A stretch of DNA of 64,000 nt from Straminergon stramineum (lineage: Eukaryota > Streptophyta > Bryopsida > Hypnales > Calliergonaceae): contig OY987263.1 of the NCBI GenBank assembly GCA_963920665.1, positions 42,071,218 through 42,135,217 of the forward strand, in the 5' to 3' direction. The notes beneath the pieces were generated by a model. It made no database searches, was not told the DNA's origin, and was given only the letters and a program-made list of their open reading frames with translations. Position numbers and translations under genes: made by a program. Below, in pieces: positions 9,627 to 64,000 of this stretch. Position 1 is the first letter of the stretch. The number at the start of each line of letters is the position of its first letter.

Positions 9627-9832
9627 TATGCCACATTTAACTACTTCTCGACTATTCAATGAATTTTGGACTAAACATCTGGAGATCTCCAAATAATAAC
9701 ATTGGGAGATCTCCAGATGTTTGTATGGATCTCCCAATGTTTTGGATTATTCCTTGATGACCATTTTTTCCTCCCAATGACCATTATTAATTCTAGACTT
9801 TCAAAAGTCCAAAAGTAATTAAATGTGGCATA
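9627..9832. mobile_element. MITE carrying GGGAGATCTCC palindromes
   Basis: Terminal inverted repeats of 20 bp with one mismatch: TATGCCACATTTAACTACTT at 9627-9646 and its complement at 9813-9832. The interior has two BglII-centred palindromes (centres about 9685 and 9709) and a third half-copy at 9726-9740. These pair with each other, so AACATCTGGAGATCTCC at 9675 is complementary to GGAGATCTCCAGATGTT at 9705. The core is the same word amplified at 55-64 kb, and a related element lies at about 55.2-55.5 kb. No open reading frame. Confidence 0.75.
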
Positions 9833-23900: not shown

Positions 23901-24258
23901 TTATTTTTGTGTGTGTCGTTGAATATCTTGACAAGAATGTGGTGATGAGTGGGGTTGTAGGTCTGCCATGAAGAGAGGGATGATGAACCGAGAAGTTGTT
24001 TAGAAGGTGACACCTTGCATAGGTGATGTACTCCAACTCTTAAGATGGACGAGGGAATGGGATTTGCATGCACTAGCTGTTGTTAGTGCTTATGGCCTTT
24101 CTGTACCTTGTTGTTTGTCGGAAGTGGCAATTTTGGATATTCTTGTCATAGTGTCTCTCAACTTGCTTTTTGTTGGATAAGTCTTCATTTCACTATTGGA
24201 ATTAAGTGACTTGATCTGTTTTTGAAATATTTTATCTTGACACAGATCAAGAGAAGGC
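20946..24258. other. GC-richer leader/promoter region upstream of the TNL gene
   Basis: Composition is closer to genic islands than to the AT-rich background, and many short frames occur on both strands without a domain. Just before the TNL start is a good 3' splice site (polypyrimidine-poor but ending TTGACACAG at about 24236-24244), so a 5'UTR intron is likely. The region may be a long spliced leader or the remains of a neighbouring gene. Confidence 0.4.
22766..23320 (+). repeat. Tandem duplication, ~280-bp unit
   Basis: The segment at about 22766-23040 is repeated at about 23045-23320. The clearest match is 22905-23035 against 23188-23315: both run from a TGTGT(T/C)TCTC start through CAGGA(T/C)CC(A/C)(C/T)ATTGCTA to ATCTCCGTTTTTG and a run of C/T-rich DNA. 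The copies are diverged. No coding function is evident. Confidence 0.55.
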
Positions 24259-27200
24259 ATGAGGAATGATCCTATCTTGGAACCGAAGCACAAGATATTT
24301 TTGAGCCATAGTGGAGCTCAAAAGGAGTTTGTGGAACACTTGTGTCAAGCTTTGGAGAATCGTTTGCACTATCCTTTCTTTGATAGACGTCAGGAGAGTT
24401 TACCTAAGGGTGAACGATTTCCGGAGTTGATTGTTCAAGCTGCCGAACAATGTGAAATGTTGATTGTGGTTGTATCGGATGAGTATTTTATGTCCAAGTG
24501 GCCCATGATTGAATTGAATGCTTTTGTAAGAGCTCATAAGTTGCACCATGAGTCCAAGAGTTCCACTTGTGGGCCCAAGATATTACCTTTATTTTATGGA
24601 CTCTCCGTGCGTGATTTGGAGGATGCATCTAGGCGAAAGAAGTGGTTTCGTAAGTGGGAGACCTTGGCAAAGGATGATGCAAAGAAGCGAATTGTAGTGC
24701 ATGATTGGAAGTATGCATTGGATATTTTAGGGTCTTTCAATGGCATCCCATATGATAATGATTTGAAGGAGGTTGTTGCTTATGAAGAGAAGATTGTTTC
24801 CTATGTTTGCAAGTCCATTGCTCCAAATAGAAAGTGGGATGATTCCTATGTGCAAGGGAAATTGAGCATTCATAAGGTAATGTCTATGAACACCAAGAAT
24901 TACTTCTTACTTTCCATCTTACTTCACTCTAGGATATGAGACGGCCTTGATTTAGAATATTCAAATGAATTTACTACTATTATAGTTTTGTCTCATTAGA
25001 AAGAATCTATTTTTTTGATCTAGTGTGTTAGATGTTAAGGGTATCCAATTGATTGGCTTGTTGTTTGGAGTTGCTTACTAGGTCATTGATGAGAAGATTG
25101 AAGGGATTGGAGTTTCAAGAAAATACAAAGTAAAATTGGTTGGCATATTTGGAGTTGGTGGTGTTGGCAAGACGACAACTTGCAAGGTATTGTGCAATGA
25201 ATTGACTAGCAAGTATGAAGGGAGGGTTTGCCATATTGAATTTCCAAGTGTTCCTTCAAGTGATTCCAAAGAGTTGTTTCAACAAGTTTTGAGAGACTTG
25301 ACAAGGAAAAGCATGGAGGTCATTCAACAATTGAATGAAGGAGAGGTAAGATATTTGGTTTTGTGTTTAAGGTTTGTTTGTAAGTGATTAAAGTTAAAGA
25401 AGCCCAAAAATGGAAGAATAAATTTTGGAGACTTGATATAGTATTTCCTTGTCCACATTTGTAATCTTGTATTACTATTTGTAATGTCTATCATTACCTT
25501 ATGAGCTTCAAATTGTTCATTTTGCATTATGGATTTCGATGTATCTTGCACAATTGTATTAGACAATGTGAAGATGTATTTTTACTTCCCTTTAGAATTC
25601 ATGTGATTGAAACAATTGGATTTCAATTTTAGGGACTTATAGATTTTATGGTGAATGTGTTCACAGTGCAAGAATATTTTGCGGAACAGTCTTTTGCAGC
25701 ACAAAACCTTTTTGGCGATTGATAATATTTCTGACAACCACCGAGCAATCCAACTAGCCAAATTGTTTTTGGAAGCTCCGTATCACATGGATAGTTTGGT
25801 GGTTGTGACAGCTCGCTCTCAAAGTGTTCTTGAACTTTTGGGGATAGATGAGGGTGCATGTTTTGAAATGCCAGATCTTGGAGAGAGGGATGCAGTGAAT
25901 TTGTTTTTGCACCATGCTGCTGGTGGTAAACAATTTTTTGATGATGAAGAGAATCATAATATAATGACTTGCGTAAGAAGGTGTTATTTCTGCAAGGGTA
26001 ATAGAGAAGATCATCATTATCATCCATTGGCCTTGCAGGCTTTGGGATTGCAATTGGGTTGTCATGGAGAGAACCCTTGTGATTGGGTGAAGAATTTGCC
26101 ACGAGTGAGGACTTTCAATTATTTCTCAGGTGGAAATCCAGTTTTTGACATTTTAAGGAGTAGTTTTGACATGCTATCACCAAGGGACCAAACTTTGTTT
26201 ATGGACTTGGGATGTTTTTCTGTCTTGGATCTGTATCCTTCACATTTAGAAATTGAATGGTTGTGCGATGCATACCAAGAAGATGAAGAAGAGTTAACAT
26301 ATCAGGTACAAATATGACTTTCATTTTCTACCATTTTCACATGTGAAGTTTTTGTCTTTTTTCCTTGTTCCCACAAGGTTGTAGTAAAAGCAAGATTGTT
26401 GAGTGTTGTCTTTCTCATTTGATTATGTTGGTTTTTTTGGCAAGTTCCATTCCAAACAGTGGGCTTGATGGGTGTGTGAAGTGACTAAGAAGTGGTAATA
26501 TAGACCAAATACATATGTCTTACTTGGTTATTTTTTGTGATGTTGAAATGGTAGTTGGAGCATCTAAAGCGAAAAGGCTTATTGCAAGATGTGGATTTGA
26601 AATCTGGAAGAGTTAGCATGCATGATCTATATTTGGAGTTCGCCAAACTTGAAGCGAATGGATCTTTTAATGAGTCAATGAACCTGAGGAAGCGGATGTG
26701 GGCATATGTGGAAAATGGTGACCTCACAGAGCTTGAAAGTAATCCAAAGGGTGGATGTTGGCATAAGTTGATACGACTTGCTATTATACAAAGCTCTTTG
26801 GCCCTTAGGAAGCATGGTCGAATTGTTGGTGGGGGTGGAAGTATGGAGAGCATGAAATGGGATTATTTTTCAAATGTTGAGGTATTGCAACTTTCTAGGT
26901 TGCATTGGGGACATGGAGCTTTCAATTGTGAGGGCTTGATGCACCTAAGGATTTTGGAACTACATGATATAAGGGAGATTGCTAGAGTTGAGGGCTTGGA
27001 TAAACTTAATCACCTTACTTATTTTGAATGGATTTCTTATGAACCACATTCTAGTAATGGTATGGGTGCTCATATTGTGGGGCAACTTCCTTCATCTCTA
27101 AGAAGGTTTTATGTCTCAGGAGAAGATGTGGTATTGGGGTCGGACGTACTTGCACGATGCTACAATTTGTCTAAGCTACAACTCTATTTGGTGGAAGCTC

Positions 27201-27991
27201 ATACATTGGATTTGAGCAATTGTAGGTCCTTGGACAACGTGTCACTTGGCTATATTCGGAACTTGCAAACCTTGTTGGGATTTGATGTCAGTCGGCCATC
27301 CAACCTACAATCTCTCATCGTTATTGATTGTGAAGATGTGGTTGATATTCCGGGAATAGATCATCTCATGGGCTTGAAGAAATTACATATAGATGAGTTC
27401 CCGAAATGTGAGGTGCCTAATTTGCTTGCTCTCACTAAATTGCAAGATTTGAGTTTATCTAGCAAGCAAAATGGTCTCATTGTGTGTGCAAAGGATTATA
27501 TTCCTCACCAACTTCGAGAGCTTCGTTGGCACTTGAGTGAATCAAAAGAGGGACTAAATCTCAATGGATTCAACCATTTGGAAGTTCTTAACTTGAGTTG
27601 GAGCATTGAATTGACATCCTTGATAGAATTGGGAGATTTGCTTGCATTGCGATGCCTTGATCTTGGGTATTGCGAACATTTGTTGTGCTTGCCAAACTTG
27701 GGTATGTCAAGGAACCTCAAAGAACTCCAGCTCAACGGATGTTCTGCCTTGGAGCTTCATGAGAAAGATATTCAAATGCTTTCTGAGTTGCCTCTATTGC
27801 AGCCAGTGCCCTTTTCTGGAAAGGGTGAGGATGAGAAGTTCAGGCTGGACCTTGTTCGAGAGAAGGTGCTTGTACATTCTGGCAATGACTGCGCTCCAAG
27901 TTCTTGGGAGCTTTGGAAGGAGGATCAATGGGAGGAGCGAGATTTGGGCGCACCTCCAATTAAGATTGGAAAGCGAGGCACTTGGGAGTAA
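24259..27991 (+). CDS. TIR-NBS-LRR (TNL) immune receptor, 4 exons
   Basis: Exons 24259-24876, 25082-25345, 25667-26305 and 26555-27991, all phase 0 with GT/AG borders, encode about 985 aa. Exon 1 is the TIR domain (KIFLSHSGAQKEFVEHLC; ILPLFYGLS), with Glu85 in SKWPMIEL at the position of the catalytic Glu of TIR NADases. Exon 2 holds the P-loop GVGGVGKTT (Lys236). Exon 3 holds kinase-2-like FLAIDNI (one Asp instead of the usual two), RNBS-B-like VVVTARS and GLPL-like HPLALQALG. Exon 4 holds the MHD motif (SMHDL, 529-531) and about 15 irregular leucine-rich repeats. Plant TNLs sense pathogen effectors in the cytosol or nucleus and signal through TIR NAD-cleaving activity. A second acceptor at 25632-25633 would shift frame and stop early; I chose CACAG at 25662-25666 because it keeps the NB-ARC frame. 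The gene looks intact. Confidence 0.9.
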
Positions 27992-37208: not shown

Positions 37209-37945
37209 TTACAAGAAAACCTCAGGTATGCAACCTGAAGGCAAATTGAATACTATTCGTTTTCAGTACATCAGATACCTCATAACTAAGTTGCCATTAG
37301 GGGTAACGCTTGGTCACCCATTTTCACATCAATCCTGTACAAAATTGGCTGTCCTTGTCACAGCAAATAGGACATGATGGTTGGCATGAAGTAAAGTTCT
37401 CTCAATTTCACAAACGTACCAGTAGGTTATGATGGTGGCACGCTCAAACTAAGTGTCACGGAGTTCCCATGAAGTTCTCAGACATGTAACCTGAATGCAA
37501 ATTGCATTCTACTCTAACCACCGGTTTTCAGAGCCACGTACGAGCAGTACCTCACCATCAAGTTGCCAGCCAGGGTAATGCTTGATCACCCATTTTCACA
37601 TTAGTCCTATACAAAAACCTGGCTATCCTGGTCATAGCAAGCAGGACAAGGACTTGGCATGAAGAAGAGTTTTCTCAACTCAACAAATGCCAGTCAAGTA
37701 TCAGTAGGTTAAGAAGGTGGCATGCTCAAACTGAATGGCACAGATTTCCCATAGGCTAATGCTTGATCACCCATTTTCACATCAGTCCTCTACAAATGTG
37801 GCTGTCCTTGTCAAAAGAAAACACCAGCAAACAGGACATGATGTTAGCGTGATGAGGAGTTCTCTCAATTCAACAAATATCAGAAACGTACCAGTAGGGT
37901 TACGAAGGTGGCATGCTCAAACTAAGCGTCACAGAGTTTCCATAA
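37209..37945 (-). repeat. Tandem triplication of the F-box gene 3' end
   Basis: Three diverged direct units: about 37209-37474, 37475-37752 and 37753-37945. Each contains the ordered words TTGATCACCCATTTTCACAT (TTGGTCACCC in unit 1), GGCTGTCCTTG or GGCTATCCTGG, CAGGACA or TAGGACA, TCTCAA, CCAGTAGG or TCAGTAGG, and GGTGGCA.GCTCAAACT. The third unit overlaps the real coding end, where GCTCAAACTAAGCGTCACAG encodes the reverse strand of the SVTLSLS tail. The two outer units therefore carry decayed copies of the last codons. Confidence 0.85.
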
Positions 37946-39132
37946 AGCCCGATATCCTCATCCAGGAGATCAAAATTCTGCACCAGCTGCTTATTGACCC
38001 GCATATGCTCCCACGAATTGTCCATCAAATTATACGTCACGGATCTTCCCCTAAAAGACGACACCACAATGGAATCCCCACACCCGATCGACAAGAAGCT
38101 CGCATTGCGTCCAATCCGGTCATGATACGGACTCCACGTATCAATATACGGCGTCTGCACCACAAGCTCCTCGAAGTGCTTGCTGGGCATATGCGTCACC
38201 GTCACACACTTCTTCTCCTTGAGATCAATCTCCACAATACTGAAGCTCCCCGCCCACGCCCGAACAAAGAACAATCTCCCTAAACTCACCACGAGCTGCG
38301 GAATCCGAGAATTCAGCAGCTTCTCCACCACCAGGCTCCACGTGTTTCCCGAGAACGACCACAAACTATGCCGCAAATTCGACGAGTCCCAAAACAGAAT
38401 GTAAAGCGTCTCCTTTATGATCACCCCTGAGCTAGGGTTTAGGTTTTGCGGCGGATCGGGGAGGTGCAGCCACACCTTAACGGTGGAGTCATAGACGTGC
38501 ATTCGTTGCCTCGTGGGATGCACTTCTTCCAGGAAAAAGATGCGGTAACTCGCCATGTCGGCAGCGACCGACATAAGCACAACAGGGTTATGCGCACCAA
38601 CGTCCAAATCAAAGAATCCGTAAAAAGGTAACTCACAAGCTTGCTTCGTCACGGGGTTGCAAACAAAAAGCGCATGCTCTTCCAACCCCATGGTGCTCCA
38701 CAAAACACAAAACAAGCCTCGATCAGCGGCGATCGTACTGCGTTGGAATCCACTACGGAATCGGTCCATCGTCTCCACTTCCTTCAGAAGAAACCCATCG
38801 TTCAAGTAGAAGTATTTCTTGCTCACACTGTCGAAAAGCTCCCACCCCATCTCGGCGTCCGTAACAGTGTCCGGCATGACGAACGCATACAATCGCAGGG
38901 GACGCACTTGAGCGGCAAATACAGAAGTGGAGAATAACGCTTTCCATTTCTTGCACACCACACGAAACTGACACAGAGTCGGCACGGGGAGAAACGACAG
39001 GACGCGTTCGAGAATTTCAGAGGGGAGGGACTGCCATAAGTCCGCCAGCAATGGAGAGTGGCAAGGAGACTCCATGAGTCCTCGCCCAATTGCGGCAAAA
39101 AAAAAAACTGCACGGGAAAGGTCAAGGGACAA
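37900..39132 (-). CDS. F-box protein with kelch-like C-terminal region
   Basis: A single open frame of 410 codons with no intron. Residues 31-68 are an F-box (LWQSLPSEILERVLSFLPVP, then FRVVCKKW), the Skp1-binding motif of SCF ubiquitin ligases. The rest fits the plant F-box/kelch-type beta-propeller class that selects substrates (LFCVLW, VYDSTVKVWLHLPD, SIVEIDLKEKKC, VTYNLMDNSWEHM), although individual kelch blades are weak. Two in-frame starts are possible: 39132 or Met20 at 39075; the second lies 11 residues before the F-box and may be the real one. Target and partner are unknown. The 3' end is repeated downstream. Confidence 0.9.
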   Translation of the reverse strand: MSLDLSRAVFFFAAIGRGLMESPCHSPLLADLWQSLPSEILERVLSFLPVPTLCQFRVVCKKWKALFSTSVFAAQVRPLRLYAFVMPDTVTDAEMGWELFDSVSKKYFYLNDGFLLKEVETMDRFRSGFQRSTIAADRGLFCVLWSTMGLEEHALFVCNPVTKQACELPFYGFFDLDVGAHNPVVLMSVAADMASYRIFFLEEVHPTRQRMHVYDSTVKVWLHLPDPPQNLNPSSGVIIKETLYILFWDSSNLRHSLWSFSGNTWSLVVEKLLNSRIPQLVVSLGRLFFVRAWAGSFSIVEIDLKEKKCVTVTHMPSKHFEELVVQTPYIDTWSPYHDRIGRNASFLSIGCGDSIVVSSFRGRSVTYNLMDNSWEHMRVNKQLVQNFDLLDEDIGLYGNSVTLSLSMPPS

Positions 39133-54243: not shown

Positions 54244-55196
54244 TTCTTTAAATGGCAAAAATTTCATTCATCATTCCATAGGATTAAAGGAGGCTTTTGG
54301 ATTACCATTGCAAGCATGTAGGGAATTAAAAGAACTAGTATAGAATGGACCTCCCCAATGGACAACAATAGGAAGCTATACATTTTTGCTTTCACCACCT
54401 CCAAGGTATCTTTCTTATAAATGAGTTCACCAACAACACATGTAAAAAAATTCTCTAATTTTTCATTAGAGCTAATACCAAACAAAATTGTGAATCAATG
54501 AGAGTAAATATGTGCAATGACTAAACAAACAACAATGGTTCATCCTACCTTATTATATAAACAATCTTTAATGTAAAAATTCATAAAAAATTCAAGAAAC
54601 CATATTTGGTTTATGAATGCATATTTACTGTTGAAGCATTTGTTGCAATTTAAGGTAGGAAGCCCATTGTAGATTCCTTGGTCACTACACACAATGACAC
54701 TTATTGGATTCCAAAAAAAAGGAGAAGATAATGCTAATTTGGGAGTATTTTACATGTATTTGGTCAACTAATTTTTGTTAAAAAATGAGACATCATACTC
54801 CATCAAAGAAAATTTAGATATCTCTCCATTCTTGATGTTCATTGATATTATTGGCCTTTGAAATGTTATGTGGCTCTCTTAATTTCCTACATGGTCTAAT
54901 GGCAATCCAAAAGTGTCCCTTCACATTGTAGAATAATTTAATGAACCTTTTGCTAAATGTTGAATGAACATGGTGGTTTTCAATGGTATTATGAAGTGGT
55001 AAATTTTCAGCCCAATTCCAACCCTTTGAGCTCCAATTCCACACGAAGTGCAATTTTTAGTAAATTAGGATGCAAAAGAATGTTGGATTTGGGTTGTGGA
55101 CTAGGAATATGAATTGGCTGGGATACAGTAGGTCCATACGGTTTGGCTTACTTTAGTGGAGATTGTTATTACACTACAAATATCATGGCACCCGAT
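54244..55196. other. Gene-poor DNA with a dispersed-repeat copy
   Basis: 54640-55030 resembles the 41.3-42.1 kb repeats (shared GGTAGGAAGCCCATTGT, ATGTGGCTCTCTTAATT, GTGTCCCTT). No gene. Confidence 0.5.
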
Positions 55197-55502
55197 GGAT
55201 GCCATATTTAACTACTTTTGGACTTTAGGAGTTTAGGAGGACTTTTGGACTTTGTGATGGGAGAAGCCATCAGGAGATCTCCCGTTGTTATGGATTAGGA
55301 GACCCCAATGCCTATGAAAGGGGGAAAAAAAGAGTGAAGTTGACCATGTTCACACACAAGAAGGGGACAAAAAACACTATAACTAAGACAATTCAATTAT
55401 TCAACCGTAGAACATTGAATTGTACATAGTAATTAAGACGAATCATTGGGAGATTTCTCGATGTAGTGCAAATCCAAGATACAAGGACTGTAAGTGTGGC
55501 AT
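55197..55502. mobile_element. Element related to the 9.6-kb palindrome-bearing MITE
   Basis: Starts ATGCCATATTTAACTACTTTTGG, as the 9.6-kb element starts ATGCCACATTTAACTACTT, and ends near AAGTGTGGCAT. The inside has a GGAGATCTCCC palindrome (centre 55277) followed by TTGTTATGGATTAGGA, resembling ATGTTTTGGATTATTCC in the 9.6-kb element, and a degenerate palindrome at about 55452. It lies at the left edge of the palindrome-rich region. Confidence 0.55.
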
Positions 55503-55937
55503 GAAACCAATAAAAATGGTTATTATTCAACTGGAACTATTAGGTCTCATTTCCCTTGTTAGTATTTCCACGCATAATTAGGAACCAGAAATCTCCCGAT
55601 ATGATCCCTACACTAAACCTCTTACAGTAAAAGAGAACATAGAAAATGACAAGGCAAATGCAAATACAAACTTCTAGTGCGGATGAATGAAACTAGAAAG
55701 TAACTGAAAGGTAAGGTGGATTCACCACAATTTATTCATATTGATATAGAAAATAACAGAAGTTGCCTTTAAAAAGAACTGAAGGCCTGGCCTATAGAAT
55801 CCATGATTCAAGATGAAAAGACAGTGGGTGCATGATTGAAAATGAAATGACAAGTGGCCCTATTTCTTCTCTGAATGCATAAACTACACTCATTGCATAA
55901 TCACCATGACTGAAGGACTTTCTACCTGTACTCTGTA

Positions 55938-56380
55938 TTAAGTCCCAGCAATTAGCTCCTTTACACCATAGCACGGACGTTCCCATCTTGAAGGAAGAAG
56001 ATCATCCCTCGCAAGTATGGAGGGTCCTACCACACGAGCATGTGGCCACTTAAGAGGATCTAGCTCAAGTAGAACTATAGTTTGATTCCAGAGAATGCTA
56101 CGCTCTCTAGGGCTACCTAAGATAAGCTTCAGTAATTCAGCACGGTTTGGATAGGGGTCATTCTTCTTAGGGTTGTCCGCACCAGCAATATAGAGGAAAC
56201 TCTTCAAAGTACTCCATGGCAGAAGACGCTGCAAAAGCGCTCCCACGACAAGAACATTCATGGAGGAATACAACCCACAGTGAGTATCTTCAACCAATTG
56301 TTTAAGAAAGCCACGAAAACCAGCAGGTATGATAATTCTCTGAGGAAGATCCGTAATGCCGCCTTCCACGCATAAAGCAC
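55938..56380 (-). CDS. Possible terminal exon, family not recognised
   Basis: A 147-codon open stretch begins after a 3' splice site (TTCTTACAG at about 56381-56389) and ends in a stop. It reads LPQRIIIPAGFRGFLKQLVE, NVLVVGALLQRLLPWSTLKS and YPNRAELLKLILG. GC content is genic. The strand and spacing fit the last exon of the decayed gene upstream, with the phase-1 acceptor compatible with a phase-1 donor in the FCP1-like exon (at CAG-G|GTGTTG), but this join is not proved. I do not recognise the domain. Confidence 0.55.
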
Positions 56381-57139
56381 CTGTAAGAACAACGAGAACC
56401 GCCTTCTGTGTTGACCAAACTCATCAGATAAGGAAAACCTCCAAACAACGGGAGATCTCCCGATGAAGCTCATGAGGAATACTCAATTCACGAAGAACCT
56501 ATCAGCACCGGGAGATCTCCCGATGAAATGAAAGTGGACAATCGCGTTGGTTAGTACCATCTAACAACGGGAGATCTCCGGGTGAAGTAAGAACTGTCAA
56601 TAACATTTTCCAGCAACTGTAAGAAACGGGAGATCTCCCATTGAAGTAAGAATAGACAACTCCGGAGAACCATTTCCAGTACTGGCTGAAAATTGAGAAA
56701 ACTCACTATTTTCTAGTTGGAATGTGGTAAAGGTAGACTACGAATTACAAGTACATTCTGGAAAGTAACTGTCATTCAAGTATCTTTGAACAAGAAATGC
56801 AAAGAACAGCTAAGGAGTGATGTGCACAGAAAAAAATCTCTGGATGGAATACAAATAAAACATAAAACTGAGTAGGAAAAAAAGAAAGCAATTCACAATG
56901 AGCATAAAAGTGCAATCACTTTACATTTCAATACAAGTAATATACAATTCACAGTGGACGGAAAATGCAATTTTTTACAATGTCATTAACACTCATCTCT
57001 TTGTTATAGTGGCAATAAAAGTGCAATTTTTTACAATCTGATTATCAATATGTACTGAGGCCTATGTATAGTGTCAATGTTTTACATCCGAATTTACAGT
57101 AACGGGAGATCTCCCGATGAAGCCTGAGAAAAACGGGGA
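56381..57139 (-). other. Presumed intron with palindrome array A
   Basis: Lies between the putative terminal exon and the FCP1-like exon. It carries four tandem palindrome units (centres 56455, 56515, 56574, 56633) and a single unit at 57109, only about 20 bp beyond the stop codon of the FCP1-like frame. Confidence 0.55.
56441..56650. repeat. Palindrome array A, 59-60 bp period, 4 units
   Basis: Units share AACGGGAGATCTCCCGATGA followed by AG, with centres at 56455, 56515, 56574 and 56633 (spacing 60, 59, 59). The spacers are diverged but keep a common length. The third and fourth units have single changes in the right half of the palindrome. Confidence 0.9.
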
Positions 57140-57792
57140 TCAACGCACTATCCCGGTCATGATTGCGAAGCCCTCATTGGATAACGGGTCAACACCCTGT
57201 TGTCCGCCAAAAAGCGGGTTATTCTTCACATACACTGGCACCTTCTCATTTGACTTAAAAAGTCCATCAAGCCAAGGGATCAACTGCATCCTAAGGTACT
57301 TGTCATTGGAATCACCGCAGAAGGACTCAGGAAAAACAACATTGTGTGGATCATTCATGACGTTCTTTATTGGACTGTTGTCAATTAGCAGAATGTTCTC
57401 TAGTGTCGATAAACCAACAGCCCACGCAAAAATCGTAAGATCCTTTAGAAAGATTGGCTTATGTGGTGCAGTTGGGGCCCTGTACTTGGTCTTTGTGCAC
57501 GCCTCTTGATTTAGACAAATTACATCTCCATGACTGAAGGAAGCATCTGCAAGGACAATGTCTAACAAGTCGTTCATGTTTCGCGGAGTTACACTGCTCC
57601 AGAATGCAACTTGCGCTTTTCCACGCAACCAATTAAGGAAGGTCGTGACCCCTGGCCGACGTTCAACATGAAGTTTATTACGGAAATACGACCTATGCAA
57701 GATAAATCCATTCAAGTCCAGAATCACTGTATAGTTTCGGCGAGGTACCTTTTTGGGTGTCCCCGAAACCGCCGTCGAAGGACTAGGACAAT
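57140..57792 (-). CDS. FCP1/SCP-like (NIF) phosphatase-domain exon, catalytic Asp to Asn
   Basis: 216 codons from a clean acceptor (TTCTGTTTTGCAG, phase 1) to a stop. In order: VILDLNGFILH, RPGVTTFLNWL, VAFWSSVTPRNM, PIFLKDL, ILLIDNSPIKNV, LIPWLDGL. These are the motifs of the FCP1/SCP/NIF branch of HAD phosphatases, which dephosphorylate Ser residues, notably in the RNA polymerase II tail. The nucleophile Asp of the DxDG motif is kept, but the second Asp (general acid/base) is Asn here (DLNG), so the phosphatase may be weak or dead, or the domain may only bind phosphopeptides. This exon is free of stops, unlike those upstream. Whether it is transcribed alone or as part of the decayed gene is unknown; the donor of the preceding exon was not found. 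Confidence 0.72.
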
Positions 57793-57911
57793 CTGCAAAA
57801 CAGAATACCAGAGAGAAGTTAGACATAAGTCCAGCGACCTCGGCATTCAATTGAAATCCAATCCGTGAAGATACATAGGATGTCACCTCAAGCACCTTTG
57901 GTGTCGTCCTC

Positions 57912-59335
57912 TCAAGTCCGATTAACTTCTGCTTCATAAACCTTGGAAGGCGAAGTAGCCCCAGATTCAAAGACCTCCTCCTCTGCTGCCTGCGGTATAC
58001 GGTCAGAGGCGATATCAACAATGCTTTGATAAATGAAACTGGTGGCCTTCCACGCAGCCTGAATATCACGAGAAGATTTACTCGTGGGATCGCGGGTAAC
58101 ACTTGCATGGTGACTTGGCAAATCAACAAGATCCTTAAAAGTATTCCTTATAGAGAGTCTCTCTGCATAAGTCAGTCCAGCCTGCAGAACTGCTATGAAT
58201 GGATTCACCTTCACTGTGCCAGCCTCCGGACTCATTTGCCTCAAGTCTACTAGAGTATCCTCTAGAATGTTGGCAGCGACATTGGCATCAGAAGTTCCAC
58301 CTTCGACCTAAGACAACGGGAGATTTCCCGATGCACCACCCTCCAACTGAATTGTCAACTTCAGCGAGGGACGAAGACTCAAATCTTGAAGTGCACGCAT
58401 CGAGAGATCTCCCGCTGCAATCCCCCCCCCTGCGCCTTCTCTGTCTCCTCCAGATCGTGAATGTCGTATGGGTCCTCACGCATCGGGAGATCTCCCGCTG
58501 CAACTCCCCCCGCTTGCGCCTTCTTTGTCCCCTCCATATCACGAATGTCGTCTGGTTCATTACCCATCCGGAGATCTCCCGATGCAGTGACTCGCACCTG
58601 CGCCTCCACCCTTTCCTCCCAATCGCCAGTAACCTCTTGGAAATCTGGAGCTCCAACCCCCATCGCGTGCGCCTTCTCTATCATCTGAAGACCGCCAATG
58701 TCTTCTGGATCACAAGTAACCTCTCGATGAGGGTCCATTGGGAGATCTCCCGATGCATCCCCCTACATCAGACTTTTCTCTCCCTCTTCACAACCGGAAT
58801 TACCGGCTCGGTCAGTATCCATCGGGAGATCTCTTGTTGCATCGTCGCGCGTCTCCTCTTGCGAGAGTTCATCACGTCCACAGTGCGAGTCGGTGCCTGC
58901 CGGTGCGTTACGCACCTGCACCACTTGTTCACTCGTAGGCTCTTGAATTGCAACAACAACACGTTCCCCCAAATAGGTAAGAAGAATAGCCACCGCTTTT
59001 CTGGATTCGGGAGTCAGTACAACGGCATCCTTTGCCCCAGTCGTTGGAGGGGACGATACGTCCGAGCTGGGCTTCTTTCAACGCGGCACTGGAGAAGAGG
59101 GTACACGGTCATCACTGTCGGAGTCACTTAGCTGGATATCTAGCCGTCGCTTCGTCCTGAACTCCACCTGGTCACTTGACTTCCTCTCACGCGGATTCGT
59201 GTTCGACATCTTTCTCGCCTTTAGCGTACCCGACTTCTCCTCAGCAGCCCGCTTTCCAGGCCTCTTTTGTGAGGCACTTGGCGTAGACGATGGTTGCAAG
59301 TCTCGGCTCGGTCGCGATGGTTCTATAGACTTCTC
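57912..59335 (-). pseudogene. Basic/disordered exon with palindrome-derived 28-aa repeats
   Basis: Starts EKSIEPSRPSRDLQPSSTPS; basic with nuclear-signal-like KRPGKRAAEEK and TKRRLDI, then a Ser/Asp run. After the stops at 59078 and 58763 it enters the 84-bp repeats, which encode about 28 residues each with GDLPM at the palindrome (GDLPM-REDPYDIHDLEETEKAQGGG; GDLRM-GNEPDDIRDMEGTKKAQAGG). A one-base loss shifts the last unit into REISR. The exon then resumes with DANVAANILEDTLVDLRQMS, SIRNTFKDLVDLPSHHASVT, which looks like an ordinary folded segment. Confidence 0.65.
58311..58840. repeat. Palindrome array B, ~84-bp period, coding
   Basis: Palindrome centres at 58323, 58407, 58490, 58574, a degenerate unit near 58647-58660, 58745 and 58829: spacing 84, 83, 84, 171 (two units), 84. 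The period is 28 codons, so the frame is kept; the 83 spacing is the one-base loss described for the exon. The unit outside the palindrome shares CCTGCGCC..TTCTCTG.C..CTCCA and GAATGTCGT.TGG.TC.T on the plus strand. Confidence 0.9.
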
Positions 59336-59441
59336 CTGGAAGGACGAAAATTCATTAGATCTTCATAAGTAAGGGCGCTAAAAAATGGAAAAGACGAACT
59401 AGCATCGGGAGATCTCCCGATGGTTCCCTCCGGCAACTGAC

Positions 59442-59756
59442 CTTTCGGACGACAGGTGTGGTTGAGGGTGAGCATTCAGACTCTGTGTCCTCTAAACTGT
59501 GAGAGCTGCTTTTGTCGTCTTCATCAGAAACATCCACGACCTCGTCGTCTTTCTGTGGTGGTGGAGGTTCTTGAGGACCTTCATCTGCTGCATCTCCATA
59601 ACCTGTTGACTGCTCCGCAACGGGATCCTCTTCAGCCTCTTCCATTTCCTCATCACCATCCATGTGCAGCTCGTCCCAAATTTGCCTTGCGACCAATTGT
59701 CCTTTGGACTGGGCCTCGGAGTCATCAACAACTTCGAGTACCTTATTCAAAGTAGC
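59442..59756 (-). pseudogene. Acidic low-complexity exon of the decayed gene
   Basis: 105 codons, no stop. Very acidic (DGDEEMEEAEEDPVAEQ; DDEVVDVSDEDDKSSSHS) with a PPPPQ patch. Borders GACAG|GCT and AAG|GTCAGT, phase 0 both sides. The next intron (59336-59441) holds one palindrome, centre 59412. Confidence 0.7.
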
Positions 59757-59850
59757 CTGTCAGATTTGAACAAGCACAAGTTAGTGTGCCACCAAGACTC
59801 ACGCAAGAAGAATATAGTCCCATACAAGAAGAATACGAATGGTGACTTAC

Positions 59851-61191
59851 CAGTCTAAGAAACGTGAACTCTGGACCACCATTCACATTCACGATAACCA
59901 TATTCTCAGAGATATGGCCAGAAAAAATTTCATGCGCCGCTGCGATAGAGAACCACGGCATAATAGGGCGCCTGTACAAGGTACTGACTTCCTCCATATC
60001 CCGAGACAAATACACGGTTGGAATTTCTTGTGTGCCCAAGAAGAAGCTGTTGAAGCTACTCGTTGAGCCTTGGATTTGGTCGTACACGAAGAGGAACACA
60101 AGGAACACATTGTAATTTGCACCTGCAATGGGACAAGGAAAGCCATCCCCCACATCCGGAATGTAATTTATTACATGCCAGTCCCAGATACGAGCTTTAC
60201 ACTCGTCCCGACGCTTCTTCAAATGTGTGAGGACGTCGTGAAATCCAGCGGCATTCGTAATAAGAACCGCAGGCGATCATGCTCTCACAATTTGTCGATT
60301 GGCGTCCCTGTACTCAAGAGCATCAAACAAGCGCTTCAACTTGTGGTGCTCGAGGTATTTTGCACGCGCTCCAGCAGATGTGACCTCAAAGAGAAACTAG
60401 AAATACATGAGGGTTTTCCCTTCACCACGCCATGCTTTCACGGAGGCGTCCGTCATAATCTTCGTAATGTCCCAACTCTTCTCGTCCATAACTTTGCAGC
60501 GGTACTGATCTACGAAATCTTGAGACACGGCAACCTCGTTTGTTTCTTCTGCATGGTCGTTCATGAAGGACTCCCACATCCTTTTCACTGAATCTGGGCA
60601 CTCGTCGGGGTCACATGTTTTGTTCAGTGCCCTCGTTCGCTCTTCCAACCATACCTTCCCAAGTTCCGTTGCCATGCTCTTATCCACCCACTACTCAACC
60701 TGCTCCCGGGTTATTTTCTTCTCCGCCGCAAATTGATCCCATTCTTTGGCACTGTATGGAATGTAGTCCGGCTTCTTGCTCGGAAGAGGATGCTGCCTAT
60801 AATGGCACATGAACTCGTTCTTCATAGCCCTGACCTTCTTCTCTCGATTTGCTGCAACAATGAGAGGCATCAATGGTTGCCCAAAATCGTCCACATTGAG
60901 CGCTGTCTTCTTCATACATACCACTGCATTCTCAACCTGCTCCGCCAAATAGTTTATGTCCTCGTTGTGGAGTCCATACAAGGGCTTGTAGTCGCTATAG
61001 CTTAGCGGTTTTCTTCTGCTTTTCGATTTTGGACCATTCCCATCAGGAAGCTTTCCCAGCAGGAAATCCCTATCAATTTGGATCCACCGTTGCACATCGT
61101 CGTCATTCTCCATGAAGAGAAGAGGAATTCTCAAGTCCGGGTTAGGATTCTTGAATCCCGTGAATATTGTAGACATCACTGGATAGAACTC
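59851..61191 (-). pseudogene. Central exon of the decayed gene
   Basis: 447 codons in one frame with stops at 60691, 60397 and 60277. Segments between them read as folded protein (EFYPVMSTIFTGFKNPNPDL, YGLHNEDINYLAEQVENAVV, AGFHDVLTHLKKRRDECKAR, WDWHVINYIPDVG). Donor CTG|GTAAGT at 59850. Domain not recognised. Confidence 0.75.
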
Positions 61192-61592
61192 CTGCACATG
61201 GAAAATGTAACTATTAAAAATTATCGTCTTTGGAAACCAACACAGTATGTAAATCTCAACAGCATCGGCCATCGGGAGATCTCCCGTTGGTTTCCTGCTT
61301 GGGTGCAGGAGGAACCAGCGCTCTATATCTTGATAGCGTCAGGTAAGGCGTGGTCCAATATCTATCGGGAGATCTCCCGTTGATCGTGCAATGCAAGCCT
61401 GCTGTGCGACGAAACTGAGGAATCCCAACTTCAACAAAGACGACTGGAAATCCGGAGGCATCCTAAGATCGTCAGCTGGAAAGACATCGGGAGATCTCCC
61501 GATGCCGAGATATCGGGAGATATCCCGATGGCTTTGCATAGGCAACAAAAAAAGAAGGGACAATGATTTGACATTTTGCTAGGGACGCTTAC
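61192..61592 (-). other. Intron holding four palindromes
   Basis: GTAAGC donor at 61592 and CATGTGCAG acceptor at 61192. Palindrome centres at 61279, 61372, 61494 and 61520; the last has a GATATC core in place of GATCTC. The intron is free of other features. Confidence 0.8.
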
Positions 61593-62902
61593 ATTGTACT
61601 CGGCGGAGTACGTTTGACCTCCATACGTTGGCATGGGGCTCCCCATATCCTTCCACTTGATTCGAGCATGCGCAAGTTGCTTAGAGAAACTCTGCTCCTT
61701 CTGTTCCCCGGCGATATTCTGGTTCAACGCCTTGGAGAGATGCATCATATCATTCTTCTTGGTGGAGTACGGTTCCTAGATCGGAATTATGTTGAACGTC
61801 GAGGCCAGCTGCTTATCAGCTTCCGGGATATGTCTTGACTCAACCAACTCCCGGTGCGCTTGGACTGTGTGTTGACCGCCAATAATGTAGTAATGGGATT
61901 TGGCGGTCAGGCTTTCCCTCTTCGGACATGAATCCCAGAATTCCACGACATTGTCAATCCCGTATGGTCCTCTCTTTAGAGGTAGGATAGTAATGTATCG
62001 GTTTTCAAAATGATAGTCGGCATCAACGAGAATTCGATTCTTGATTCCCTTGAGGCGTTGGGGCTCAATGCCTCTATACACCAGTACGCCAGGAGGAGCC
62101 TTGTGAAGGTTCTTGTAGTGCACTCACAGTAGTTCACCTTTTGCATTGGCGAGTGGCTTCTTCTCCCACTTGTACATTGGTCTGAATACCTGGTTGTACA
62201 GCTTGTTGATTTCTTTAATCTCATCGGGCTCAAGCTTCCTCACCTCAGCATCTGTCATGTTCACGGTGCGATGCAATGTGAGCTTGATAGCCTTCGGCTT
62301 CTTTTTCCCCTTGCCCTTGCCCACTGGCTCCTCTACCACTTCATCTCCTGGTCCTCCGGCAATGGCTTTCCGCTTCTTTCCCTTCTTGCTAGGAGACGGC
62401 TTTGGAGGTGTGGGTGCAGCAGACTTCGGTTGTTGTCTGGTCTCGTCCAGAATGTCCCACTCATTCTTCATCTCCTGAGGAGTCCAGAAGTGGGTTCCGT
62501 CTGGTTTCTCTAAAAACCCCTTCCATGTAATACTCTCACACATGTCAAGATCCATGGTGGCGTAGTCTAGGATCAAACCATATTTCCTTCGCTCCTCAGT
62601 CTTGGGAACCATTTCTTTGACAATGACGAGGACTGTGGCGTTATCTAGACCCTGTAGCTCTAAGACAACTAACCCCTTTGTCATGTGACCTTTGTCGCTG
62701 AAGGTGAGCTTCGGGCATATGATGACTGTTCCATCTTCCTCCTCAATCCACTCAAGGCCCCAAGCTGAGACTTTCCGGTCGCATCGGAACACTGCTCCTG
62801 GGAAGTTCTCGCCATGATACCGATACGAATGCACCCAGCTATCGCAAAACTTGAACAGTTTTATAGGTGAGGCTTGTAGGGAATTCCTTTTTCACATTCA
62901 AG
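61593..62902 (-). pseudogene. Exon 1 (of those visible) of the decayed gene; ParB/DGQHR-like stretch
   Basis: Entered from an upstream intron (acceptor CTTGCGCAG, ending at 62903). LNVKKEFPTSLTYKTVQVLR then slips frame into DSWVHSYRYHGENFPGAVF. A basic, Pro/Lys-rich linker (KPSPSKKGKKRK, GKGKGKKKPK) follows. After the TGA at 62124 comes VHYKNLHKAPPGVLVYRGIE and then YYIIGGQHTVQAHREL, which loosely resembles the (G)GQ/ERR core of ParB-type and DGQHR domains; this is a shape match only. The exon ends AEYN at GTAAGC. Confidence 0.65.
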
Positions 62903-62969
62903 CTGCGCAAGAAGATAAAAAATATATTAGATTGACTGGATCACGATGAATCGAGTGTAATCTGAACAC

Positions 62970-63000
62970 CTTCTCTATATCAGGAGATCTCCCGATGATC
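62970..63000. repeat. Single palindrome unit upstream of the decayed gene
   Basis: Palindrome AGGAGATCTCCCGATGA, centre 62987, in the presumed intron or leader before the acceptor at 62903. It has one mismatch to the consensus on the left. Confidence 0.75.
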
Positions 63001-63140
63001 CTTTATATTTTCGACGTACTCGACTAGTAGTAATTCTATCCAAGGATAAATTCTACAGAAAATCGCACCGACCTATTGAATTTAAAGAAGATACCGGAAG
63101 ATATGTCCTTGCATTCAAATCCAAGATAGGTCGAATTTGG

Positions 63141-63555
63141 CATTGGGAGATCTCCCGTTGCATTCTAAACCCTTCATAAATCAAACCTGCCGTCGGGAGA
63201 TCTCCCGTTGCAGTTATATCCTTCATAAATCAAAGCTCGCATCGGGAGATCTCCCGTTCCATTCTCATTCGTCAAAATTCGAAGCTGGCATCGGGAGATC
63301 TCCCGTTGCATTATCATCCGTCATAATTCAAAGCTGGCATTGGGAGATCTCCCGTCGCATTGACATCCCTCAACATTCAAAGCTAGCATCGGGAGATCTC
63401 CCGTTGCCCCCTAAATCCGCCATAATTCATAGCTTGGCATCGAGAGATCTCCCGTGGAACTCACATCCTTGATTAGTCAAACCTGGCATCGGGAGATCTC
63501 CTGATGAAGCGCGCTTCTAAATTTATCAGAGCTAGCATCCGGAGATCTCCCGATG
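63141..63555. repeat. Palindrome array C, 49-bp period, 9 units
   Basis: Centres at 63150, 63200, 63249, 63298, 63347, 63396, 63447, 63496 and 63545; spacing 50, 49, 49, 49, 49, 51, 49, 49. The consensus unit is GCATCGGGAGATCTCCCGTTGC followed by a spacer that usually reads about 'attCaTcC.TcAtaaTtCAaagCTgG'. The right half of most units is CCCGTTG rather than CCCGATG. The regular spacing resembles a CRISPR array on sight, but the spacers are similar to one another, so it is a minisatellite. Confidence 0.95.
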
Positions 63556-64000
63556 TTCGGGTCTTGACCAGATGAGTAATGATGACCCTAATTTCGTTTA
63601 GCAGTTTCAGGATGCCTATGTGTAGAGGAAGGAGTCACTCTACCTGGAGTGTAAAGCATCGGGAGATCTCCCGATGCTTTCTTTAGTTTCTGACTTAAAA
63701 AGTTTATTCACCTGATTCTCTGCAGATTTTTTATCGCGTATGGTAAATATGTCTACAATCTATCGGGAGATCTCCCGATAATATTCATCTTGACTGAGTT
63801 TCATCTCTTACTCTTGCTTTTGTTTTTATCGGGAGATCTCCCGATGGTCTACTTGCGAAATAATTGACGACAGCAGTTAGAATACCAGTGTCATAATGAC
63901 GGTTCAGGGTTATTTCTCCACGAAGTGAACTCGCAGTGACAATGTACTGCATTTTTCTTAGTCGACTTTCATCGGGAGTTCTCCCGATGAACGGTTATAG
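63556..64000. repeat. Dispersed perfect palindromes beyond array C
   Basis: Four copies, centres 63666, 63770, 63836 and 63979 (spacing 104, 66, 143). They are closer to the full palindrome (ATCGGGAGATCTCCCGAT or longer) than those in array C; the last has a GAGTTCTC core. No gene lies in 62.9-64.0 kb and the cluster probably continues past the window. Confidence 0.85.

Follow-up and report, generated by a model that had tools for sequence, protein, structure and literature searches.

A 20-bp palindrome, CATCGGGAGATCTCCCGATG, is amplified on contig OY987263.1 of the moss Straminergon stramineum (assembly GCA_963920665.1), in a stretch of 64,000 nucleotides (positions 42,071,218 to 42,135,217 of the forward strand) that we refer to as the window. 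The palindromes cluster at the right end of the window, within a large DNA transposon bounded by terminal inverted repeats (TIRs) that carries, among other genes, a decayed gene with a predicted ParB-like fold. We describe the element, its relatives in the window's own genome (326,016,511 bp in 59 contigs) and the most likely role of the palindromes.

Results

The cluster sits in a 21,323-bp transposon running from window position 55199 to 76521 (G000:C1:42147738), past the right window edge. A degenerate TIR pattern matched the window three times, at 55199 and at the two arms of a miniature inverted-repeat transposable element (MITE), and not once in 100 shuffles; since this similar TIR at 55199 immediately precedes the cluster's first palindrome, it pointed to an element that continues beyond the right window edge. 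The contig sequence past that edge indeed contains the other end, at window coordinate 76521, its reverse complement agreeing at 26 of 26 positions (0 mismatches) with the left TIR, ATGCCATATTTAACTACTTTTGGACT (26 bp, 55199..55224, plus strand). The target-site duplication ATGG is present on both sides (55195..55198 and just past 76521). The 8,802 bp inside the window (55199..64000) form the left 41% of the element, the remaining part has further arrays of 48, 55 and 52 bp, and the element as a whole, hereafter W, contains 60 palindromes.

Within the window, CATCGGGAGATCTCCCGATG gave 32 matches at up to three mismatches (0 in 100 dinucleotide shuffles) and 34 at up to four (mean 0.0 in 20 Markov resamples), so the amplification first noticed in a sequence-only reading of this DNA is real. 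All but two start within 55268-63970. The remaining pair, at 9676 and 9700, lies about 46 kb from the cluster and outside the interval in which that reading had placed the palindromes (55270..64000). Both fall in a 204-bp MITE (9628..9831) with inverted ends ATGCCACATTTAAYTACTT, whose TIRs (9628-9653 and 9806-9831) have 3 and 2 mismatches to that of the element. This MITE has no perfect target-site duplication (ATCT/ACAT), and its palindrome-masked interior showed no significant similarity to the element's left end (183 and 288 of 1000 shuffles reached the score).

From left to right, the first palindrome (55268..55287) stands 69 bp inside the element's left end and is followed by an isolated copy with three mismatches (55444..55463), by array A (56446..56643; four palindromes, period 59-60, spacings 60/59/59), by another isolated copy (57100..57119) just beyond a NIF-domain reading frame, and by array B (58314..58839; six palindromes, period 83-84 or 28 codons, plus one double gap of 171). 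An isolated exact copy (59403..59422) lies within a probable intron, with splice signals identified by eye. Four palindromes at 61270, 61363, 61485 and 61511 (61270..61530) are located downstream of the ParB-like exon, and one at 62978 precedes the nine of array C (63141-63555, period 49-51; 62978..63555 in all). A final set of four matches to CATCGGGAGATCTCCCGATG, at 63657, 63761, 63827 and 63970 (63657..63989), has nearly the same spacing in the other complete copies of the element, with one of the four absent in the copy I4. These spacings agree with the periods given in the sequence-only reading for all three arrays, including the nine units of array C. Array B lies in a minus-strand, low-complexity reading frame; over 58379-58762 its translation is repetitive, with units of about 28 residues in which the palindrome encodes SGDLPM or a variant; a search for homologues with a peptide derived from the array returned none.

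Between arrays the spacers are unrelated (mean forward z -0.09 to 0.28; top single pair 1.92 forward and 2.89 reversed), which bears out the earlier description of a shared palindrome with array-specific spacers, and the three arrays do not align as copies of one another once spacers are included. Within arrays, the spacers of C are mutually related (mean z 4.37) and those of B partly so (mean z 2.74), while the three in-array spacers of A have no detectable kinship by global alignment (z about 0), residual similarity being visible in the array A flanks in the direct repeat D9.

The element carries a DUF7869 gene (PF25273, E 2.6e-36; a domain of unknown function), whose product is a probable transposase. 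The decayed ParB-like gene, for which a ParB/sulfiredoxin fold is predicted, is represented on the minus strand by the ParB-like exon (61587..62864), which is 72-73% identical to the ParB-like query P0001 and has two in-frame stops, and by the next long exon (59849..61188; boundaries by eye), which has three. This second exon gave no match above the curated cut-offs in Pfam, PHROGs and NCBIfam, and none there to an N4/N6 methyltransferase domain; a by-eye resemblance to a methyltransferase near 59900 is not counted as evidence. In place of GERR and ENLQR, which passages of PMC8494293 identify as the CTP motifs of ParB, a by-eye alignment finds IIGGQHTVEAHR and LNQNIAG. Neither a helix-turn-helix nor a ParA partner was matched in the scans made, which annotated the element's right half only to a limited extent. 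Two of nine ParB-like relatives weakly match DUF6551 (best E 0.029). In viral contigs 16 stretches fit a pattern for the ParB-like family, none of them confirmed as a relative; P0001 had no relative in phages, and neither the query P0010 nor the whole element had one in plasmids. Finally, a minus-strand reading frame (57140..58147) with a NIF (FCP1-like) phosphatase domain (PF03031, E 5.8e-16) is either a captured host gene or a gene of the element. In the left part of the element, the ParB-like exon, the NIF domain and the long exon chain add up to 3,136 bp, and none of the 16 clusters into which the 32 palindromes there group is located in them (chance 0.00035, or 0.023 without the exon chain).

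The genome-wide count suggested by the sequence-only reading gave at least 1,958 sites with up to two mismatches to the palindrome, as against 0 for the reversed control, so the core is far from absent elsewhere. From 11 clusters among the matches listed, we examined nine islands, the window's included, as a non-random sample from contigs C1 and C2 (the other two clusters being C1:694601 and C2:13477159-13481721). Six of the nine (W, I2, I3, I4, I5 and I8) are complete elements, between 21,109 and 22,864 bp long, that have TIRs at both ends (one left end having one mismatch) and, in every case, perfect 4-bp duplications (ATGG, AACA, ACAT, AATG, TTAT and AGTT). Together they contain 348 palindromes, 53 to 62 each, versus 0 in 47,828 bp of flank. 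The palindromes are therefore internal and subterminal repeats built into a family of 21-23 kb TIR DNA transposons with 4-bp duplications. With this layout kept at six loci with intact duplications, an assembly artefact is an unlikely explanation for the window element.

The order of the arrays (59, 84, 49, then 48, 55 and 52 bp) is conserved between copies and the unit numbers vary, the 55-bp array having about 12, 18, 14, 7, 5 and 8 units in W, I2, I3, I4, I5 and I8 (counted from gaps). Because unit numbers differ between element copies, each array expands with its own flank, as had been proposed in the second half of a seeding-then-amplification scheme; the first half, a palindrome that is itself mobile, found no support.

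Among the other islands, I7 is a family member by sequence, but the stretch retrieved for it lacks a right TIR, and it was excluded from the counts. I1 and I6 contain palindrome arrays, resemble the element over short stretches only and look like assembly artefacts; their spacings were not used. Both regions (G000:C1:6075000-6089500, L015 and L016; C2:13742000-13757500, L025 and L026) are inverted duplications, identical at 100% over 4,561 bp and 99.97% over 3,678 bp, respectively, each with a 200-N gap. I6 also contains two identical 247-bp MITEs with a similar TIR and an imperfect duplication (AAAG/AAAT). In I3 there are two right TIRs 174 bp apart (G000:C1:28382821 and 28382995, L033), of which only the outer gives the perfect ACAT duplication.

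Across the genome, 102 matches to the ParB-like exon were recorded. A first group, which includes the window copy, is 63-75% identical to P0001, a second is 44-50% identical, and the remaining matches are weaker or partial. In both groups palindromes flank the ParB-like exon on either side, and the palindrome versions of the two subfamilies differ symmetrically, a change in one half being matched in the other. The group 2 members L042 and L043 (50% and 49%) have the palindrome CATCTGGAGATCTCCAGATG, with T5/A16 in 33 of 35 copies, and L044-L047 (46% each, two members) have T5/A16 in 9 of 10. In the six group 1 elements this combination occurs in 0 of 350 palindromes and G5/C16 in 253, the total being 350 rather than 348 as it covers copies found using either consensus; one-sided changes at the 5/16 pair are frequent there (AC 29, GT 27 and GA 13 of 350). 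The stretch L048, upstream of an exon 38% identical, contains no palindrome within six mismatches. A comparable stretch, L049 (G000:C1:44061382-44062381), next to a more distantly related ParB-like exon (42% in the first exon part) and upstream of it, has five within four mismatches, degenerate and of the first type (three G5/C16, none T5/A16), and is possibly a third lineage. In addition, 2 of 11 tails past the exon in database relatives encode palindrome peptides (shuffle p 1.7e-4, post hoc).

Since palindrome and spacer were duplicated jointly within the arrays, the neutral expectation is that they diverge equally. This is not what we observed. Deviations in palindromes versus spacers were 9/160 vs 51/232 in array C, 6/80 vs 53/156 in A and 6/80 vs 71/255 in B (p 6e-5 to 3e-6 for the three arrays), the difference not being significant for one closely related pair of B units (p 0.19). 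The palindrome centre, GAGATCTC, is the most conserved part, with 4/272 deviations vs 55/408 elsewhere in the palindrome in the window, and 74/2784 vs 527/4176 across the six elements (sums of per-position counts).

Elsewhere in the window, a possible resistance-type gene at 24241-27991 consists of a TIR-domain reading frame (PF13676, E 2e-15) with a leucine-rich stretch behind it, three-copy imperfect direct repeats (D10, D13 and D20) adjoin an F-box gene at 37301-37947, and there is a DJ-1 reading frame. Together with the probable introns and a genome size of 326 Mb, the TIR-domain, F-box and DJ-1 frames would accord with a plant-type host.

Discussion

The palindromes are probably family-specific half-sites that a homodimer of the element's own making recognizes. 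The ParB-like protein is the likeliest candidate for it, and the DUF7869 protein is the probable transposase. A site read by a homodimer is indicated by the matched change in both halves, the conserved centre and the presence of the motif in two sister families, and of the possibilities raised by the sequence-only reading, a binding site for a dimeric protein has the best support. The ParB-like product is preferred as the reader on three grounds: relatives of it in bacteria bind palindromes in cis, the ParB-like exon has palindromes around it in both groups, and passages of PMC12477816 propose that such proteins bind their own transposon. Each palindrome would then act as a paired half-site, and dense sites could let the protein coat its own element, leading to assembly of a transposition complex or to marking or protection of the copy. 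Arrays would grow and shrink by tandem duplication, with family-level selection keeping the palindrome while the spacers drift and become array-specific. More tentatively, this could amount to self-recognition of the ParB-parS kind, in which a ParB-fold homodimer would read dozens of family-specific palindromes along the 21 kb of its own element, load or spread on it, and distinguish its own copies from those of the sister family, with symmetric co-divergence of protein and palindrome.

Comparison of aligned element copies weighs against such constraint on the palindromes. They differ between copies by 4-8%, as against 3-7% for the remaining sequence, so that in recent insertions the palindrome decays with no constraint apparent.

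It is possible, if doubtful, that the palindromes are instead sites of the DUF7869 transposase itself, the ParB-like gene having another role. In six of six complete copies the distance between the nearer end and a palindrome is 61-85 bp (61-431 bp counting both ends), palindromes occur in a MITE without genes, and, according to PMC11707139, 19-bp palindromes at the ends of piggyBac are bound by two C-terminal domains of the transposase dimer. Most palindromes of the moss element, however, are not merely near the ends but deep inside it, in probable introns and one coding stretch.

A hairpin, whether cruciform DNA or an RNA stem acting for example in small-RNA silencing or replication, is unlikely. 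The near-perfect symmetry and the family difference matched on both sides would fit it, as would the strong folding of the window MITE (z -7.6, mostly through its TIRs and neighbouring palindromes). Yet the central loop of a spacerless hairpin should vary freely, and positions 7-14 are the most conserved; moreover, the 5/16 pair of family 1 is often changed on one side, with no matched T/A change. Functionless minisatellites expanding neutrally within a transposon are an even poorer candidate: unit numbers do vary by copy, and aligned copies lack extra constraint relative to the rest of the element, but the spacers of the same arrays have diverged far more than the palindromes, and the same palindrome recurs in six arrays of different period, with the matched change between families. 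A short palindrome mobile by itself (introner- or REP-like) and seeding new sites, which would account for its recurrence in varied surroundings between unrelated spacers, is very improbable given that every palindrome of the window belongs either to the large element (32) or to the MITE with its closely similar TIR (2) and that 348 of 348 lie between the TIRs of the six elements, that their flanks and the other 54,994 bp of the window have none, and that palindrome positions are common to element copies.

The 4-bp target-site duplication is a trait of Sola transposons that is also found in other superfamilies. Taken with the ParB-like gene, it tentatively points to Sola; the families matched in the library scans did not include a Sola transposase model. 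Membership of CACTA/EnSpm was rejected, as the element ends are ATGCCATATTTAAC and a CACTA string at 55172 lies outside a TIR that starts at 55199. Vector contamination, considered in view of the resemblance of the palindrome core to the BglII region of common expression vectors, is ruled out by the genomic context. A prokaryotic or viral origin was likewise rejected: the 18-mer core occurs at 6 places in genome contigs and 2 in viral contigs, once per stretch, which by our estimate is near the chance expectation from the size of those collections.

Large TIR transposons with repeated binding motifs (passages of PMC2613891) and with ParB-like accessory genes (passages of PMC12477816) are already known. 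Sola1-1_Ec32 of Ectocarpus, a 21.5-kb giant transposon whose ParB-like accessory gene and transposase lie on opposite strands, is similar in length and in having such a gene. In that element, however, ParB-like and N4/N6 methyltransferase domains are joined in one protein, whereas none of the latter was detected here in Pfam, PHROGs or NCBIfam. In PMC12477816 the ParB-like accessory proteins of algal transposons are reported by prediction and are suggested to bind the transposon that encodes them; its passages on the subject make no mention of a palindrome. The soybean CACTA element Tgmt*, as portrayed in parts of PMC2613891, resembles ours in being 20.5 kb long with many subterminal palindrome-forming repeats and an element protein as presumed binder, motifs and binding proteins being argued to diverge together. 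Unlike the moss element, which has ATGCC ends, duplicates 4 bp and carries palindromes in probable introns and in coding sequence as well, Tgmt* has CACTA ends, a 3-bp duplication and repeats described in its borders. Excerpts on piggyBac (PMC11707139) and Hermes (PMC10368747) also report (quasi-)palindromic sites bound by paired transposase domains, but near the ends, whereas here about 60 are spread over 21 kb. Bacterial ParB-parS, in passages of PMC8494293 and PMC12704722, shares the ParB fold (predicted here) and palindromic sites in cis, and differs in its CTP motifs, in its ParA partner and helix-turn-helix (neither matched in the scans made here), in its host, which here is a eukaryote, and in the number of sites, here tens per element.

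In searches of an open-licence library we found neither the 20-mer CATCGGGAGATCTCCCGATG nor a description of a palindrome throughout a whole element together with a ParB-fold gene. What stands out here is the occurrence of 53 to 62 copies of one 20-bp palindrome over an entire 21-23 kb element, with an adjoining ParB-fold gene and a sister family carrying a matched variant. The number of array units, which differs by copy, may serve as a marker of copy history. One genome thus offers a natural series of protein/site pairs, and with it a concrete test of how ParB-like accessory proteins recognize their own element.

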